Shown: positions 23,753 through 59,267 of the stretch, piece after piece
Numbering within the stretch: the stretch's first letter is position 1
Layout: the number at the start of each line of letters is the position of its first letter
Source: a virus
DNA length: 64,000 bases
Strand: one strand, 5' to 3'
IMG/VR virus record: IMGVR_UViG_3300018411_000019
Location: 43,314 to 107,313 of that record
The notes under the pieces: generated by a model
Seen by the model: only the letters and a program-made list of their open reading frames with translations
The model's database searches: none
Told to the model about the DNA's origin: nothing
Program-made: the position numbers and the translations under genes

Positions 23753-26700
23753 ATGGCTGTAATGTTTCTTTACGAGCGCTATGAAAAGCTGTTCGGTATT
23801 CGACGCTTGGGTGGTCTGGAAAACCCCAAGGTCAGGCCGATCAGTCGCTTTGCGCTACCGCGTGGTACGGTCTACCACTACATGCCCGTCACCGAGACTG
23901 AACTCGGCCCGGCCAATGACGACCCTGCCATCAAGGCGGCCCAGCGGTTGGTCTTCATTGATCATGTATCTGATCTGTTGGTTAAAGACGGCAATCCCCG
24001 GCCGACCTATAAGCTGATTGGTCCGATGATTCAGCAGTATCGGCGTGAGCACATGTTCATCCGACCGATGCGCGATTACATCGGTAGCACCAAAGAGCTG
24101 ACCAACATGGTGGTGGTCAACTACGCCATGATCGGACACATGTACAAGTATCAGCGTTCGGCTCTGAGTCGGTGGTGGTACTGGAAGAACATTCGTTCCA
24201 CGCAATGGGAGCGGATCAATCAGCTGAAGACTCCTCACGAACGTCATCATCTGGTCGTGATGGATGTCCCTCAGAGCCTGCCAGCCCTGTCGGATCTGCG
24301 TAAAGCAGAGCGCAACATGACGCCGATGTTGATGAAAGTATTCAACTCACGTGAGCGTCTGGATCTGCTGGATCTGTGGATGTGGTTGGGCGAACACCGT
24401 GCCAAGGCGCCAATGGCTAAGTTGGACGAATCGCGCCTACATGAGATCGAACTGCTTATTCGCCGCGAGACTGGGTTCCTGACCATCAACTTGGGCTTGC
24501 TCAATAGCTGGCGTAAAGCAGGTGCCGGTGTCTCTATGGAATCTCTGACCATCGGTGAACCGGACCCTGAGTTTGACTTCGAGGAGACCTTTGATCGGTA
24601 TGTCTCGATGGAGAACAATGGTGACATGACGCTGGATGAGGACATGCAGGTTTCGATGGAAGCTGCGGCTGGCATTGACCCCAAGATCATCCAGTTGCGC
24701 TTCCTGAAGATGTTGACACGGGTTGTTGCTCAGACCAGTACAGTGCAGGCCGAAGTTGATCCGGATTTGCTGGAGGAATCCCCTGAAGCAGGCGAGGTGG
24801 ACCCTGAAGAAGCGGCTCAGGCCAAGGAAGAAGCTGACGAAGAAGCCCGACTGCTGGAGGAGTCAACCACTCCCGAACTGACCATCGACGAGGTGGAAGA
24901 AGAACTGGCTGAAGAACTCGATGAGCCAGCGACCGACAATACCGACACTGTACTCACCGATGAGGACGGGGAGCTGGTGATTGAGGCTGACCAGGATAAA
25001 CGCGAAAGCGTCGGTCAAGTGGTCGGTACCAGCAACATCGCACACACCCTGACTAGCAGCATTCAGGCTAAGCTCGATGAATTGGTGGACAAGGACCTGT
25101 ATACCGCTGCCCAGTACCGTCGGATGCAGCGTCTGGCCGAGTCGTACAAGACCATGCCCGATCCGTGGAACACAGGGAAGACTGTGGAAGAGTCGCTGGT
25201 CATCACCGATGAAGATCAAATCCTCTCGGCAGCTGACAACTACCCTAAGACTGACGCGGTGCGTGACGAATCCATGTTGCAATCCACCGTGGAGCAGATG
25301 GACAGTCAGTACATCGAACGGGTGATGAAAAAGGACATTCTCAATGCGGTGATGTCCGTTCAGAAAGCCGGTGTAGCAGTTACTGGGTATAAGGTAGAGG
25401 TGGTGCAGGATGCGGTCAGTCACTATGAGATCCACAAGATCCAGTTGACTCCTGTAACGGGAAAACCTTCGACCATCTCGTTCCGGGTGCCGGTCGTTGA
25501 CAAGCGCGGGGTGTACATCTCCAACGGTCAACGGTATCGGTTGCGGACTCAGAAAGCGGATAAATAATTTCCAGTAATCGTTAAAGCACGGGGACATGTG
25601 TTCGACCCCAGTAAAATCATTACACCGGAAACGAATGTTCGCGTGATGCAGTAATGCGTCACTAGCAAACCTACCTAATTGCGGGAAAACGCCGTTAAGG
25701 TCATTGGCTACCACTTGCTCCAGGAAACTGAGAGTAACACTCATCCCAGTAATGGAAGCGATGAGCATGGTAAAAACGTCAACGATAGGCGCAACCGACG
25801 CAGCGAAGTCCCTAACGCCCTACAAGGCCATGGGATGTGCTCAGAGGCCATCGAAAGCTACATCCGTACATACGGACTAATGACATCTGCATAAAGCCAG
25901 GTGGTGGCTCTTAGGAGTCTTTAAAGCGAGTAGAGTACCTGTTCATTAAGAATGGGGAAACGGTAGGCATCCTACAACTCAATAGAGTGCTGAGGATGAA
26001 GATATGGTCCAACCAGATGGGGTTGATTCCCATCAGAAAAGTTAACCCCACCCGTGTAGCACTGACCAGCTACTACAGTAAGTTGTTCATCGAACGCTCT
26101 CAGCGCTCTGTGTTCAACTACGATGCCTGGATCGGTAAGCAGATTGTCGCCAAGGGTCTGGATAAGACCGATAACGTCATCAACAATGTAAAGGTCGCTG
26201 ACGTAGCGGACTTCGGACTTGACCTGCCCACGATTTACACCATCATCGGCAGCCGTGTGATGTCCTTTGAGTCGAATGGACAGTACTGGTTCGATTACAA
26301 GAACCGCCACCGCAGCCGTGTATTGGACATGGTACAGGTCGAAGCGCTGGAGAACAAGCATCCTGGGATGGTGGTCTGCGGTAAGCGCGACAACGGTTAT
26401 GTACTGGTGGACCGTGACAATGCTTTCTACCTGGTTAAGGGTAATGAACAGGTTGAAGAGCTGGGTCATGTCGAAGAGCTGTTTAACCTGAACCGTGAAA
26501 AGGCCCCGGTGGGGATGGCTGAAATCAGCATCTTCGGTAAAACCATGCCGGTTGGAATCGCACTGGCGTATCTGGTCGGGTTTGATCGGTTGCTTGAACT
26601 GACCAAAGCCAGCTTCCGGACGGTCCCTGTTGGAACTAGGCTGCAGATGGGGCCGGATGAGTACGCGTTGAAGTTCCTGGATGAAACGGTGGTGCTCGAC

Positions 26701-29700
26701 AAGACCGACGACAAAGTCAGTATGATTTTCGCCGGGTTCGTGCACTATCACAAGCAGATCAAGAGCTTCAGTCGCCATAGCTTCAATGCCAAGGATGTGT
26801 ACTTCACGGTATTGGACGCCAACGGCATCGGGTTGCGGTATTTGCGTGAACTGGACCTGATGAACGCCATGTGGGTCGATCCGATCACCAAGGGCGTACT
26901 CGAGTGGATGAAAGAACCCACCGAGTATGTGCCATTGTTGCTACGGGCTGTCGAGCTGCTGATCAACCGTTATGTCCCAACTGTTGTGGAAGGGGCGGAA
27001 GGTCTGATCGATGGTCTCGAACGAGCCAAGGGCTATGAGCGGATTCCGGGAGCAGTCTATGGGGAACTGGTGCGTTCGATTCGGGTGTATAACTCGCGCA
27101 GTGCATCGAGCAACTCTCAAGTCACCATGAAGCCCCATGAAGTCTGGACCAACATCGTCCAAGACCCGGCGTCGGCACTGGTCGATGACATCAACCCGAT
27201 TCAGAACCTCAAGCAAAAGGAGATCATCACGTACGGGGGTCGCGGTGGACGGAGCAGCCGCTCGATGACCGCAGAATCTCGCCTGTACAAGGAAAGTGAT
27301 ATTGGCTTCATCTCTGGGGATACAGTGGACTCGGGGGACGTGGCGGTCATCACCTACATGTCACCGAATGCCAACATCACCAGCATTCGCGGTACCGTTC
27401 GCAAGTACGACAAGGAAAAGGATGGTTCGGCTAACCTGCTGTCGACATCAGCTTTGATCTCACCGTTCTCTGACCGAGACGATTAATGTTTGCTGTATAG
27501 TAATGAATATAGTACTCCTATTGTATGTCATGATAGGAGTTGCACATGAATCCAATCGAGTTAGAGGACTATCCAGGTTTCTATGAAATTTCTGGATATA
27601 GTCGTTATGGGATTTCCATAACTGGGGAAGTAATTAGGCGGGCAGATGGGAAATATCTGCAAGGAAGTCGAAATCCGAAGGGTTACTTTAACTTTCGATT
27701 AATTGGGGACAATGGAAAGGTGTTAACTTGGGGTCGACACAGACTCATGTGCTTCGTCTTCAAACACCCAGGATACCCAATAGATAACCTAGTGGTCAAC
27801 CACAAGAACTGCATCAAGGGCGATGATTTCCTTGATAATCTCGAGTGGGAGACTTATACAGGTAACGCTGAACACGCTGGTTATAACCAATTGACCAGTA
27901 AATGCGTTCCCGTCCTTGTCAGGGACTCGGTAACTGGTATTGTTATTGAGTTTCCAAGTGCTATCAAATGCGCACTTAATCTAGGTTTGACAAAGGACGC
28001 TGTACTGTGGAGGATAATGTCTAAGGGACAGAAGGTATTTCCCGATGGACGGCAGTATAAACGTCTCCATGATGAAGAAGATTGGTTCATTCCTGGAAAG
28101 GAATTAAGGAAGACATTCCCGGACCGCAATGGCAAAGTAGTTTTAGTGAGAGAACTTCTAACAGGGAAAATAAAGTCATTCTCGAAGCTTAAAACGCTCG
28201 CTATGCTCCTAGGAACCAATCAATCGAAGTTGACACTATGGTTAAAACAAGAAAACCAGCCAGTACTCCCTGGATACATTCAGGTAAAATTGGCTAGTGA
28301 TCCTAAACCATGGCGACACGTAGAAGACCCCTACTTGGAATTGGATTTGTACACTAAGAAAAGGTCTGTCGTAGTAATTGACGACACGTGTGAGTCAATT
28401 GAGATATTTCCTCAATGTACAGATGCGGCTAGGAAATTCGATATCTCGCCAACTCTTCTTGATTACAGACTCAAGCGCCCAGATCGGGCGTATGGGGATG
28501 GATATAGATTCATGTACTATTCGGACTATGCAGCCCGTAACAATGGTCCGGTTAATCAGTAATGGTTAACTGAGCGTCCTCTAATTGCTGGGACATCCTT
28601 AGAGCCTCACTACCAAAACGGAGATCGAAAGATCAGACGGTCATGGTTAGAAAAGTGTGAGGATTGGGTAATCAGCAGCCAAGCACCTAAGTCTTCGGAT
28701 ACGGTGATCGGGTTCAACGACTAAGGCCTCGTCAGCCTGTACACTCAAGTGAGTGGAAATGTGGACTACCCTACAGTGAGGGTAAAGATATAGTCTCGAC
28801 ATCTGGGGAAAGCCCAGAGCTGCACGTAATGGTGCGGGTTAGGCTTAACGAACCTAACCGAAGACATCGCCAAAACGCGTCAACTTCATCGGCATCCAGC
28901 AGTCTCACGTAATCGCTGCACAGGGTTACCGTGAGTCACCTATCAGCACCGGTTACGATCACATTCTGGCCCATCGGGTCGATGAGATCTTCGCCGTGCC
29001 TGCTTCTAAAGCAGGTGAAGTGGTTGAGCAGAGTGACGAGCATCTGGTGGTGGCGTATGAGGACGGGACGTTTGAACACGTTGATCTGACCACGCAGTAT
29101 GGCATCTCGGCCGGTTCGGTCTATCCGCAGCGACAGGCTACAACCCTGAAGCTGGGCGACAAGATCGAGAAGGGCGACATCCTCAAGTACAACGCCGGGT
29201 TCTTCAAGCCCAGCCGGTTCCATCCCAAGCAGGTACAGTGGATGGCAGGGGTGATTGCCCGGACAGCTTTGATGGAAGCGTCCTATACGCTCGAGGACTC
29301 CTCGGCCATTGATGATTGGTTGGCTGAGCAACTGGGATCGGAAGTCACCAAGGTCAAGACCATTGTTGTTCGGTTTGACCAGACAATCCGTAACTTGGTC
29401 AAGGAAGGCGACCACACGGACATCGCAACTATCCTATGTACGATCGAAGACGCTGTAACAGCCGAATCCGGCTTGTTCTCAGACGACGATCTGGATACCT
29501 TGCGCCTAATGTCATCGGCAACACCTTCGGCAGGCGCTGTAGGTGAAGTCTCGAAGATCGAAGTCTTCTACCATGGTGACCCGGACGACATGTCGGATTC
29601 GCTTTTGGAGTTGGCGTTGGCTCACGACAAGCGTCGCCGTAAGGTGGCCAAGCGGCTGGGTAAACCGGCAGCCAGTGGGCAAGTGGATCAGTCATTGCGT

Positions 29701-57379: not shown

Positions 57380-57394
57380 CACATTATCCATATG
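57380..57394 (+). promoter_or_regulatory. Shared 15-nt promoter-like motif upstream of phuZ
   Basis: CACATTATCCATATG, sharing its first 11 bases with the motif at 36941, and 55 nt before the original phuZ start codon. Confidence 0.55.
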
Positions 57395-57448
57395 CTAGCG
57401 ATCATAGCTTCATCAACTAATCGCTCAACCCCAAAGAGGAAACACAAG

Positions 57449-57520
57449 ATGTCTCAAGGTCTTTCTACTCGTCCTGTCGGCCAAGTGCGTATCTATTCGT
57501 GCGGGGTCATCGAGGAATAA
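57449..57520 (+). pseudogene. Orphaned 5' fragment of phuZ
   Basis: Codes for 23 residues, MSQGLSTRPVGQVRIYSCG followed by VIEE and a stop. Its first 19 residues match the start of the intact PhuZ downstream (MHNGLSARPVGTIRVFACG) at 11 to 12 positions and about 61% of nucleotides. It carries the original promoter-like motif and ribosome binding site (AAGAGGAAACACAAG). Homology ends at TGCGG, inside the Gly-rich nucleotide-binding loop. The last codons overlap the binding site of the endonuclease gene. This is the stump left when the endonuclease gene entered. Confidence 0.8.
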
Positions 57521-57523
57521 GCA

Positions 57524-58291
57524 ATGAACGACATAGTTCTTGCCCCATTGAGCGGCAAACCGACCAGGAAAGAACATTCATTTCCAGCGGCTTATGTCCT
57601 GACTCATCAGAAGACGGGCAGGGCATATGTCGGCAGCACGCACAACCTCTACACACGCATTAATCAGCACAAGAACCGTTTGAAAGACGGGACTCACCGG
57701 AACCCAAATTTACAAAAGGCTTATGATGACGATCCTCGTTTCGACCTGGGTTTCATTAAGGCTGAGAGTAAAGAAGAAGCTCTTGACATTGAACAGCATT
57801 TGCTTGACAGCGGCCATAGTCAAGGCAGACTGTTTAACGTCTCTACCGATGCTCGTCGAACAGGCTTAGGTGTCCCGGTCCCTGAAGAGGCCAAGAAGAA
57901 ACTGAGCGAAGCTGCTCGGCGCCAGTTTGCTGACGAGGCAGCCAGGCAGGTGCAGTCTGAGCGCTCTAAGGAACTGTGGAAAGATCCTGAATTCAGGGCT
58001 AAGCACGTTGGGCGCGAGCGATCACTTGATGAGTTAGAAAAGCTAGCTGCAGCAAGAACCAAGGCATGGCAAGATGAAGACAGTCGTGACCGACTCCTTG
58101 CACACAGACAGTCCCCGGAATTCAGAGCCCTTGTGGCAACGATAAACGCAAAACCAGTAACTGCCAATGGCGTTACTTACCCAAGTAACGCTGAGGCTGC
58201 TAGACAATTAGGTATTAAACCAGATGCTCTACGTGCCAGACTCAAGCGTCAAAAACTCAAAGAAACCACAGAAGGAAAACACCATGCATAA
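57524..58291 (+). CDS. GIY-YIG homing endonuclease inserted in phuZ
   Basis: A 255-aa protein. The GIY-YIG domain spans about 20-108: AAYVLTHQKTGRAYVGSTHN with Tyr24 and Tyr35, Arg45 (LYTRINQH), catalytic Glu90 (LDIEQHLL) and Asn105. A linker with NUMOD3-like features (PVPEEAKKKLSEAAR) follows, then a NUMOD1-like helix-turn-helix near the C terminus (NAEAARQLGIKPDALRARLK). It would cut an uninterrupted phuZ allele. The gene lies between the phuZ stump and the regenerated phuZ, overlapping the latter by 8 nt. GAGG precedes its ATG. Confidence 0.9.
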   Translation: MNDIVLAPLSGKPTRKEHSFPAAYVLTHQKTGRAYVGSTHNLYTRINQHKNRLKDGTHRNPNLQKAYDDDPRFDLGFIKAESKEEALDIEQHLLDSGHSQGRLFNVSTDARRTGLGVPVPEEAKKKLSEAARRQFADEAARQVQSERSKELWKDPEFRAKHVGRERSLDELEKLAAARTKAWQDEDSRDRLLAHRQSPEFRALVATINAKPVTANGVTYPSNAEAARQLGIKPDALRARLKRQKLKETTEGKHHA

Positions 58292-59267
58292 CGGTCTCAG
58301 TGCTCGTCCGGTCGGAACCATCAGGGTTTTTGCTTGCGGAGGTGGAGGGATAAACATCGGTCGTGACTACCTGACCCCAGGCCATTCGGCAGATATTGCT
58401 GACTTCCAAGTGGCCTTCGTCGACACCTCCGATTCCAACCTCACCGAAGGTCTGGAAAACAACACCTGGCTGTTCAAGGACCTCGACGGTTCCGGTAAGA
58501 TCCGCAACAGCAACGACAAGGTCATTGCCAAGGCAGTGCCTGACATCCTGCGTAAGTTCGCGCCGGCTGACATGAACATCGTGATCTTCACGGCGTCGGG
58601 TGGTACGGGTTCGGTCGCTGGCCCGCTGATCCTCAAACAGCTGCTGGAAGACGGTCACCAGGCCGTTGGTATCGTCACCGGTTCTCACGAGTCCATCAAG
58701 ACTGCCGAGAACACCATCGGTACCATCAAGTCGCTCGATGCCATCGGTCGCATGACCAACAAGCCGGTGGTTATCCATTTCGGCATGAACCGTCCGAATG
58801 TGCCGCGCTCCTCGATCGACCGTGAAGCCCATCTGATGATCAATGCCCTGGCAATCCTGTGCAGCCGCCGTAACCACGGCCTGGACACTGCCGACATCGC
58901 CAGCTTCCTGCAGTTCAACAAGTCGACCGATATCCCGGCGTGCTTGGCTCGTATCCACCTGTTCGATGACATCGATCAGTTCGAGAAAGTCCTGACCGAC
59001 CCGATCTCGGCCGCTTACCTCAAGCGCGAGCAGGATGACCCTCAGCCGAATGTCTTCGTGCCTTACAGCTGCGATGGCTTCATGCCGTCGTTTGCTCAAA
59101 CGTCGAAGAGCCTGTTCTTTGGTATCGAAAACCACTCCTTCGGCGCCCTGGCGCAGGAACTCGAAGGCCTGAAGAAGGAGATGGAGATGCAGCGTAAAAC
59201 CCGCTCTCAAGCTGTCTCGTTCTTCAGCGACAGCGATGACGTGTCCACTACCGGACTCGTGCTCTAA
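58284..59267 (+). CDS. phuZ: PhuZ-type phage tubulin
   Basis: A 327-aa tubulin/FtsZ superfamily GTPase. It has a Gly-rich first loop (FACGGGGINIG, 17-26), the G-box tubulin signature SGGTGSVAG at 105-113, and a C-terminal acidic tail (FFSDSDDVSTTG). In phiKZ-like phages PhuZ forms the bipolar spindle that centres the phage nucleus and moves capsids to it. The size is close to known PhuZ proteins. The start has AGAAGG upstream within the endonuclease gene; its first 19 codons replace those stranded at 57449. Codons from 58350 onward are more optimised than the endonuclease part. A 12-bp terminator follows. Confidence 0.92.
   Translation: MHNGLSARPVGTIRVFACGGGGINIGRDYLTPGHSADIADFQVAFVDTSDSNLTEGLENNTWLFKDLDGSGKIRNSNDKVIAKAVPDILRKFAPADMNIVIFTASGGTGSVAGPLILKQLLEDGHQAVGIVTGSHESIKTAENTIGTIKSLDAIGRMTNKPVVIHFGMNRPNVPRSSIDREAHLMINALAILCSRRNHGLDTADIASFLQFNKSTDIPACLARIHLFDDIDQFEKVLTDPISAAYLKREQDDPQPNVFVPYSCDGFMPSFAQTSKSLFFGIENHSFGALAQELEGLKKEMEMQRKTRSQAVSFFSDSDDVSTTGLVL

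Follow-up and report, generated by a model that had tools for sequence, protein, structure and literature searches.

How can a phage tubulin gene, phuZ, stay whole when a homing endonuclease gene has settled inside it? Homing genes without introns or inteins are thought mostly to be intergenic or to split the gene that they enter. The window analysed here (the whole stretch of 64,000 nucleotides) is part of a 107-kb viral contig from a jumbo phage akin to Pseudomonas phage pPa_SNUABM_DT01; no other annotated phage matched the window at the DNA level, and DT01 did so at 69.8%. Read 5' to 3', the locus consists of a 23-codon stump of phuZ, a GIY-YIG homing endonuclease gene and an intact phuZ with a second start. 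We consider it quite probable that phuZ was invaded by an intronless homing element made up of an endonuclease gene and a diverged 5' end of the target gene. The features of the locus are as follows.

57436-57439, plus strand: GAGG, Shine-Dalgarno-like by sequence, ahead of the stump
57449-57520, plus strand: stump ORF with product MSQGLSTRPVGQVRIYSCGVIEE, comprising 19 native phuZ codons, four non-phuZ codons and a stop codon
57512-57516, plus strand: GAGGA, Shine-Dalgarno-like by sequence, in the stump tail just 5' of the endonuclease ATG
57524-58291, plus strand: GIY-YIG homing endonuclease gene, 255 aa, of I-TevI-like layout (PF01541, phrog_314; TIGR01453 just below its cut-off)
58270-58276, plus strand: AGAAGGA, Shine-Dalgarno-like by sequence, serving the replacement phuZ start and lying inside the endonuclease coding sequence
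58284-58352, plus strand: replacement phuZ 5' end, codons 1-23, with start codon, N-terminus and GGGG loop codons, delimited by lineage comparison
58353-58362, no strand: right junction from donor-type to recipient-type sequence, placed by discriminating sites against L002 and L003
58284-59267, plus strand: intact hybrid phuZ, 327 aa (Pfam Tubulin; PHROG tubulin PhuZ, E = 4e-80)

The first-pass annotation had read the 23 codons at 57449 as the original phuZ start, followed by an endonuclease gene whose end runs into a second start. Both readings hold. Nineteen of the 23 stump codons are phuZ codons, and the stump is 94% identical, over the 51 nt compared, to the native phuZ 5' end of L002, the closest relative. 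The gap between the stump and the endonuclease ATG is 3 nt, and the 3' end of the endonuclease gene overlaps the phuZ ATG at 58284 by 8 nt. The gene was also said to be kept whole, and the complete reading frame from that ATG to 59267 bears this out. The stump keeps its ribosome site and stops just 5' of the endonuclease ATG, so it probably acts as a leader; given the GAGGA in its tail, translation of the endonuclease is probably coupled to that of the stump.

The endonuclease matches Pfam GIY-YIG (PF01541) above the curated cut-off (E = 3.8e-9) and the homing endonuclease family phrog_314 (E = 9e-17); with TIGR01453 (E = 2e-14) the score of 54.1 bits falls just below the cut-off of 56.05. The expected catalytic residues (Y24, Y35, R45, E90 and N105) are in place: these and H49 are invariant across 10 aligned proteins. 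The C-terminal region itself matched no named Pfam domain, and it aligns with the region that Pfam names as I-TevI-type (PF20987) in the related proteins of L051 and L052. A PDB sequence search with the protein returned chance matches only. These matches point to an I-TevI-like GIY-YIG homing endonuclease, with putative cleavage activity on the empty allele.

To trace the origin of the two 5' ends, we compared the locus with uninterrupted relatives. In L002, phuZ is 97% identical to that of the window (protein), the flanking DNA is 95-98% identical (97.75% for the flank upstream of the stump) and the gene is uninterrupted, beginning MSQGLSTRPVGQVRIYACGGGGINIG. Over 51 nt, the new 5' end of the window is 82% identical to L003, 78% to L006 and 59% to L002. 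The stump thus matches the close empty relative and the new end another lineage, as expected from the first-pass proposal that the new end came from a divergent phage. No relative was found in which the second start is the ancestral, uninterrupted allele of the window lineage. The two 5' ends within the window had been described as similar but clearly different; this stands, with the stated nucleotide identity of about 61% recomputed as 59.6% (34 of 57 nt). On the whole, the earlier interpretation of the locus is supported.

The foreign tract is sharply bounded. Compared with L002, the hybrid phuZ has 27 mismatches in the 66 nt of nt 4-69 and 25 in the 915 nt of nt 70-984, a clustering far beyond chance (Fisher p ~1e-20). 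The gene body is 97.3% identical to that of L002, with 23 silent and two replacement codon changes. At sites that discriminate L002 from L003, the new tract has the L003 base at 17 of 23 and the L002 base at one of 23; in nt 70-102, the L002 base is found at 12 of 13 such sites. The left junction lies at the TGCGGGG codons and the right junction about 12-20 nt past TGCGGGG, in the region of nt 69-79 of the gene. Everything from the start codon to the surroundings of the insertion point has therefore been replaced. The AGAAGGA leader of the replacement start resembles the native 5' leader of L003 (AGAAGGAATATCTCCCATGAATAACGG).

These comparisons bear on whether the new end could instead be a tandem duplication of the phuZ 5' end, made in place at insertion and then diverged by drift or by escape from cutting. 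The protein is conserved and many differences are silent, as expected if the DNA alone had to change. The agreement of the new end with L003 at 17 of 23 sites speaks against it, as do the six sites where L003-L006 agree against L002, all of which carry the L003-L006 base; the amino acids TIR and part of the leader also follow the other lineage. We regard such a duplication as improbable. The replacement end is identical to no sequenced phage (best match, 82% over 51 nt), and some divergence in place of a tract acquired from elsewhere is possible.

Empty phuZ alleles are present in L002-L006, L008, L009, DT01 and others. Among the phuZ loci of viral contigs, the gene is interrupted at the same codon in the window and in L007, which comes from a different data set, so that occupied and empty alleles of one fixed site occur in related genomes. 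The order in L007 is a stump (MSTGLSTRPVGTIRIFACGDNTGV, then a stop codon), an endonuclease gene and a new start (MTTTGLSTRPVGTIRVYACGGGGINLG), and its stump contains a purine-rich run (CAGGGGTGTAAGCGATG) ahead of the endonuclease ATG. L007 can likewise be paired with an almost identical relative whose phuZ is empty, L006 (97% identity across the flanks and the phuZ body). Seventeen of the 24 phuZ mismatches between them fall in nt 10-69, and the remaining seven are spread over the other 921 nt. In two separate pairs, window/L002 and L007/L006, the replaced stretch is thus the same and stops at the same point on the right (about nt 69).

Since the window contig is metagenomic, as are all contigs with interrupted alleles, an assembly that joined strains was considered. 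An artefact of this kind is very improbable, because a separate data set has the structure at that codon too and sister contigs show comparable arrangements at other genes (below).

Over their first 480 nt, the window and L007 endonuclease genes are about 92% identical (86-96% per 60-nt bin). The neighbours are less alike, at 76% for phuZ and 72% for the upstream gene. Because the endonuclease is far more alike than the genes that flank it, it has moved between lineages, and the comparison indicates horizontal transfer of the phuZ-site endonuclease. The two elements are not simple copies of one unit, since they diverge over the final third of the endonuclease gene and their replacement 5' ends are 71% identical. 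In both endonuclease pairs compared (window 57524-58291 with L007 4258-4956, and L051 with L052; n = 2 only), the end on the stump side was better conserved and the side adjoining the replacement gene end more diverged, as if the replacement end and the adjacent nuclease half had been exchanged together.

The likeness of the window endonuclease to group I intron endonucleases (TIGR01453), and the presence of two group I introns elsewhere in the window, raise the question of whether the insert is a group I intron, or an intein, that is spliced out. The stump ends in a stop codon and the downstream frame has a complete 5' end of its own, so that splicing the stump on would duplicate the N-terminus. 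Searches for group I intron RNA gave no convincing match at the window phuZ site, even with E values up to 5, and none in L007, L051, L052 and L096. An excised intron or intein is scarcely credible here.

By testing the flanks of GIY-YIG genes in related contigs, we found the same kind of architecture at the dCTP deaminase gene (dcd, PF22769), where the elements of G009 and G003 share one site. A further case involves an HNH endonuclease in an unnamed conserved gene of G002.

L051 1363-2309 (G009:C1:76309-77255): dcd element with new 3' end, endonuclease and displaced 3' end
L052 500-2318 (G003:C1:71717-73535): composite dcd element with displaced native 3' stump
L072 3001-4400: dcd composite as in G003, without endonuclease
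L096 7850-9700, minus strand: 5' case in the unnamed conserved gene of G002, with stump, HNH endonuclease and replacement 5' end

The G009 endonuclease carries an I-TevI-type DNA-binding domain and NUMOD3. The displaced dcd 3' end of G009 is 77-82% identical to the native ends of L056 and L060-L063, and 73% identical to the active end. The G003 composite begins with the native dcd 5' part, which ends in a short foreign C-terminus; an entire substitute deaminase gene comes next, then the endonuclease gene, and last the native 3' end that was displaced. In G002, the stump of 91 codons is 93% identical (nt) to the native gene of G003 and is followed by the HNH gene (phrog_374, E = 1e-74). The 5' end of the copy that follows barely aligns, and identity is 96% from nt 285, about 15 nt past the stump end. 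The replacement piece has a frameshift within a run of A, and the gene may accordingly be broken or mis-sequenced.

Architectures of the stump, endonuclease and replacement type were present at four of 15 GIY-YIG places in 12 records in a Pfam search. This count is a safer denominator than our rough endonuclease census, which gave false positives at the gene after phuZ and at 116-aa ORFs beside tandem paralogues. Six-frame self-comparison of related contigs left the phuZ, dcd and G002-gene cases alone after inspection; the other matches were rejected as tail-fibre repeats, tandem paralogues and antisense frames. No duplicated gene ends were found at seven GIY-YIG relatives in annotated phages, namely T5-like Gostya9, FLC6, Totoro, Joad, Bobb, NK1 and PhiPA3.

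The recurrence bears on the strongest alternative, in which a free-standing intergenic endonuclease lay upstream of a donor phuZ, its flank was co-converted and repair at the short TGCGGGG match left the stump as an accidental scar. T4 endonucleases as a rule co-convert their flanks (PMC2988022). Other endonuclease genes do lie near phuZ (HNH genes upstream of it in L006 and L032 and, in the L006 and L007 contigs, a second GIY-YIG gene at a distance of about 2 kb), and the replacement ends differ between the window and L007. Accidental repair would have to explain, however, why stump codon and right boundary are common to two phages and why the order of stump, endonuclease and replacement recurs at other genes. 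None of the related viral phuZ loci turned out to be a donor in which the window endonuclease precedes an uninterrupted phuZ. We judge an accidental scar of this kind unlikely, and give a similarly small chance to its corollary that the replaced 5' end is hitch-hiking flank and not a built-in part. The recurrence with identical boundaries favours a replacement end that is integral to the mobile unit.

For an element with such a built-in gene end we propose the following mechanism. The mobile unit would comprise the GIY-YIG endonuclease gene together with a diverged phuZ 5' end, including ribosome-binding site and start codon. During a mixed infection, the endonuclease would cut empty phuZ in the conserved GGGG-loop codons, and the element-bearing phage would provide the template for double-strand-break repair. 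Repair would join the left end at the shared TGCGGGG and the right end a short way beyond the cleavage site, at about nt 69-79 of the gene. What had been the 5' end of the recipient phuZ would persist as the stump, a leader for the endonuclease, and the recipient's gene body would be fused to the donor 5' end. The resulting phuZ would be whole and, differing at so many positions, presumably safe from cutting; loss of the cleavage site near the Gly-rich loop was also supposed in the first-pass annotation. The phuZ, dcd and G002-gene cases together suggest a natural "cut, insert and repair" element for which splicing is not needed.

Outside phages, elements have been described that bring a diverged end of their target gene with them and leave the recipient's end as a displaced fragment, as seen here. 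In yeast (Torulaspora/Lachancea), WHO elements replace the 3' end of their target, FBA1, with cleavage and allele-specific resistance demonstrated (eLife 55336, PMC7282813). As in WHO, an endonuclease is combined with a diverged target end, an important gene stays whole and the old end remains as a displaced fragment; resistance in WHO comes from allelic differences rather than interruption, and we presume the same for phuZ. The WHO family proper is defined by a LAGLIDADG HO-like nuclease and the FBA1 target in the yeast nucleus, whereas the phuZ element has a GIY-YIG nuclease, resides in a phage and supplies a 5' end with start codon and ribosome site. Cleavage by WHO was demonstrated; that by the phuZ endonuclease is predicted. 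Replacement of the 3' end, common to WHO and mitochondrial mORFs, is seen in dcd of G009 and G003; in phuZ and the G002 gene it is the 5' end that is replaced. The mORFs form hybrid genes in Allomyces (atp6) and Glomus (atp6, atp9, cox2 and nad3) (PMC3630166). They too join an endonuclease ORF to a foreign gene end, whose identity to the native duplicate is 64-81%, and the Glomus atp9 mORF has a GIY-YIG nuclease as in phuZ; unlike the phuZ element, all replace the carboxy-terminal (3') end, and do so in mitochondria.

Among phage systems, T4-type endonucleases (SegF, SegG; MobE in Aeh1 nrdA) share with the phuZ element the absence of splicing, the co-conversion of flanks and entry into conserved gene regions. 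In the available part of PMC2988022 they are intergenic or split a gene into two pieces that must reassemble, and nothing there describes a replaced end of a gene accompanied by a displaced stump. The jumbo-phage endonuclease of the PhiPA3 gp210 intron targets a gene of a co-infecting relative, and a recoded target restored function experimentally (PMC11620839); unlike in phuZ, its gene lies within a group I intron and splicing keeps the host gene whole. The first-pass annotation knew of no described case in phuZ, and the open-access literature likewise gave no phage precedent for a carried gene end and no 5'-end version of any kind. In design, the phuZ element resembles laboratory home-and-rescue drives.

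Carrying a spare end of the target gene would give phage homing genes a third route. The 5' version must supply a start codon and a ribosome site, here within the endonuclease reading frame. The balance of the evidence leans towards an undescribed class of intronless home-and-rescue elements in jumbo phages, in which a GIY-YIG or HNH nuclease is joined to a diverged 5' or 3' end, or to a complete substitute gene (dcd of G003). Such elements would invade conserved codons of important genes and render their host phages resistant in co-infection. The phuZ alleles offer ready-made pairs, one sensitive and one presumed resistant. The element would also account for abrupt local mosaicism within the phage tubulin gene, for which a role as a species barrier among jumbo phages has been discussed (PMC12908238).

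Several further features were noted around phuZ and elsewhere in the window. In both L006 and L032, uninterrupted phuZ is immediately preceded by the HNH gene, and in G005 and G006 (L054, L046) the second GIY-YIG gene, about 2 kb upstream of phuZ, is 47% identical to that of the window. With these extra HNH and GIY-YIG genes, the phuZ neighbourhood is therefore an endonuclease hotspot. In L032 (2926-3034), the phuZ leader and first codons are 94% identical to the L007 stump region and the gene body is 69% identical; judged by these values, L032 is another sharp phuZ 5' mosaic, with no endonuclease inside the gene. A conserved ACATTATC motif (window 57381-57388) lies about 60-80 nt upstream of native phuZ, and is also found in L003-L008, L029, L031 and L032; it is possibly a phage promoter element. 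In the window the motif has kept its place ahead of the stump and the insert has no copy of it, so transcription of phuZ probably passes through the endonuclease gene.

At the other end of the window, a HEARO RNA (Rfam RF02033, 108 bits) at 428-653 lies directly upstream of a 449-aa ORF (690-2039), which we take to be a putative RNA-guided nuclease of the IscB/IsrB type with an HNH motif. The two group I introns (Rfam RF00028) are at 25622-26036 and 28517-28819, with an HNH-like ORF at 27540-28562. They sit in apparent consecutive parts of one large gene, perhaps a candidate virion RNA polymerase subunit.
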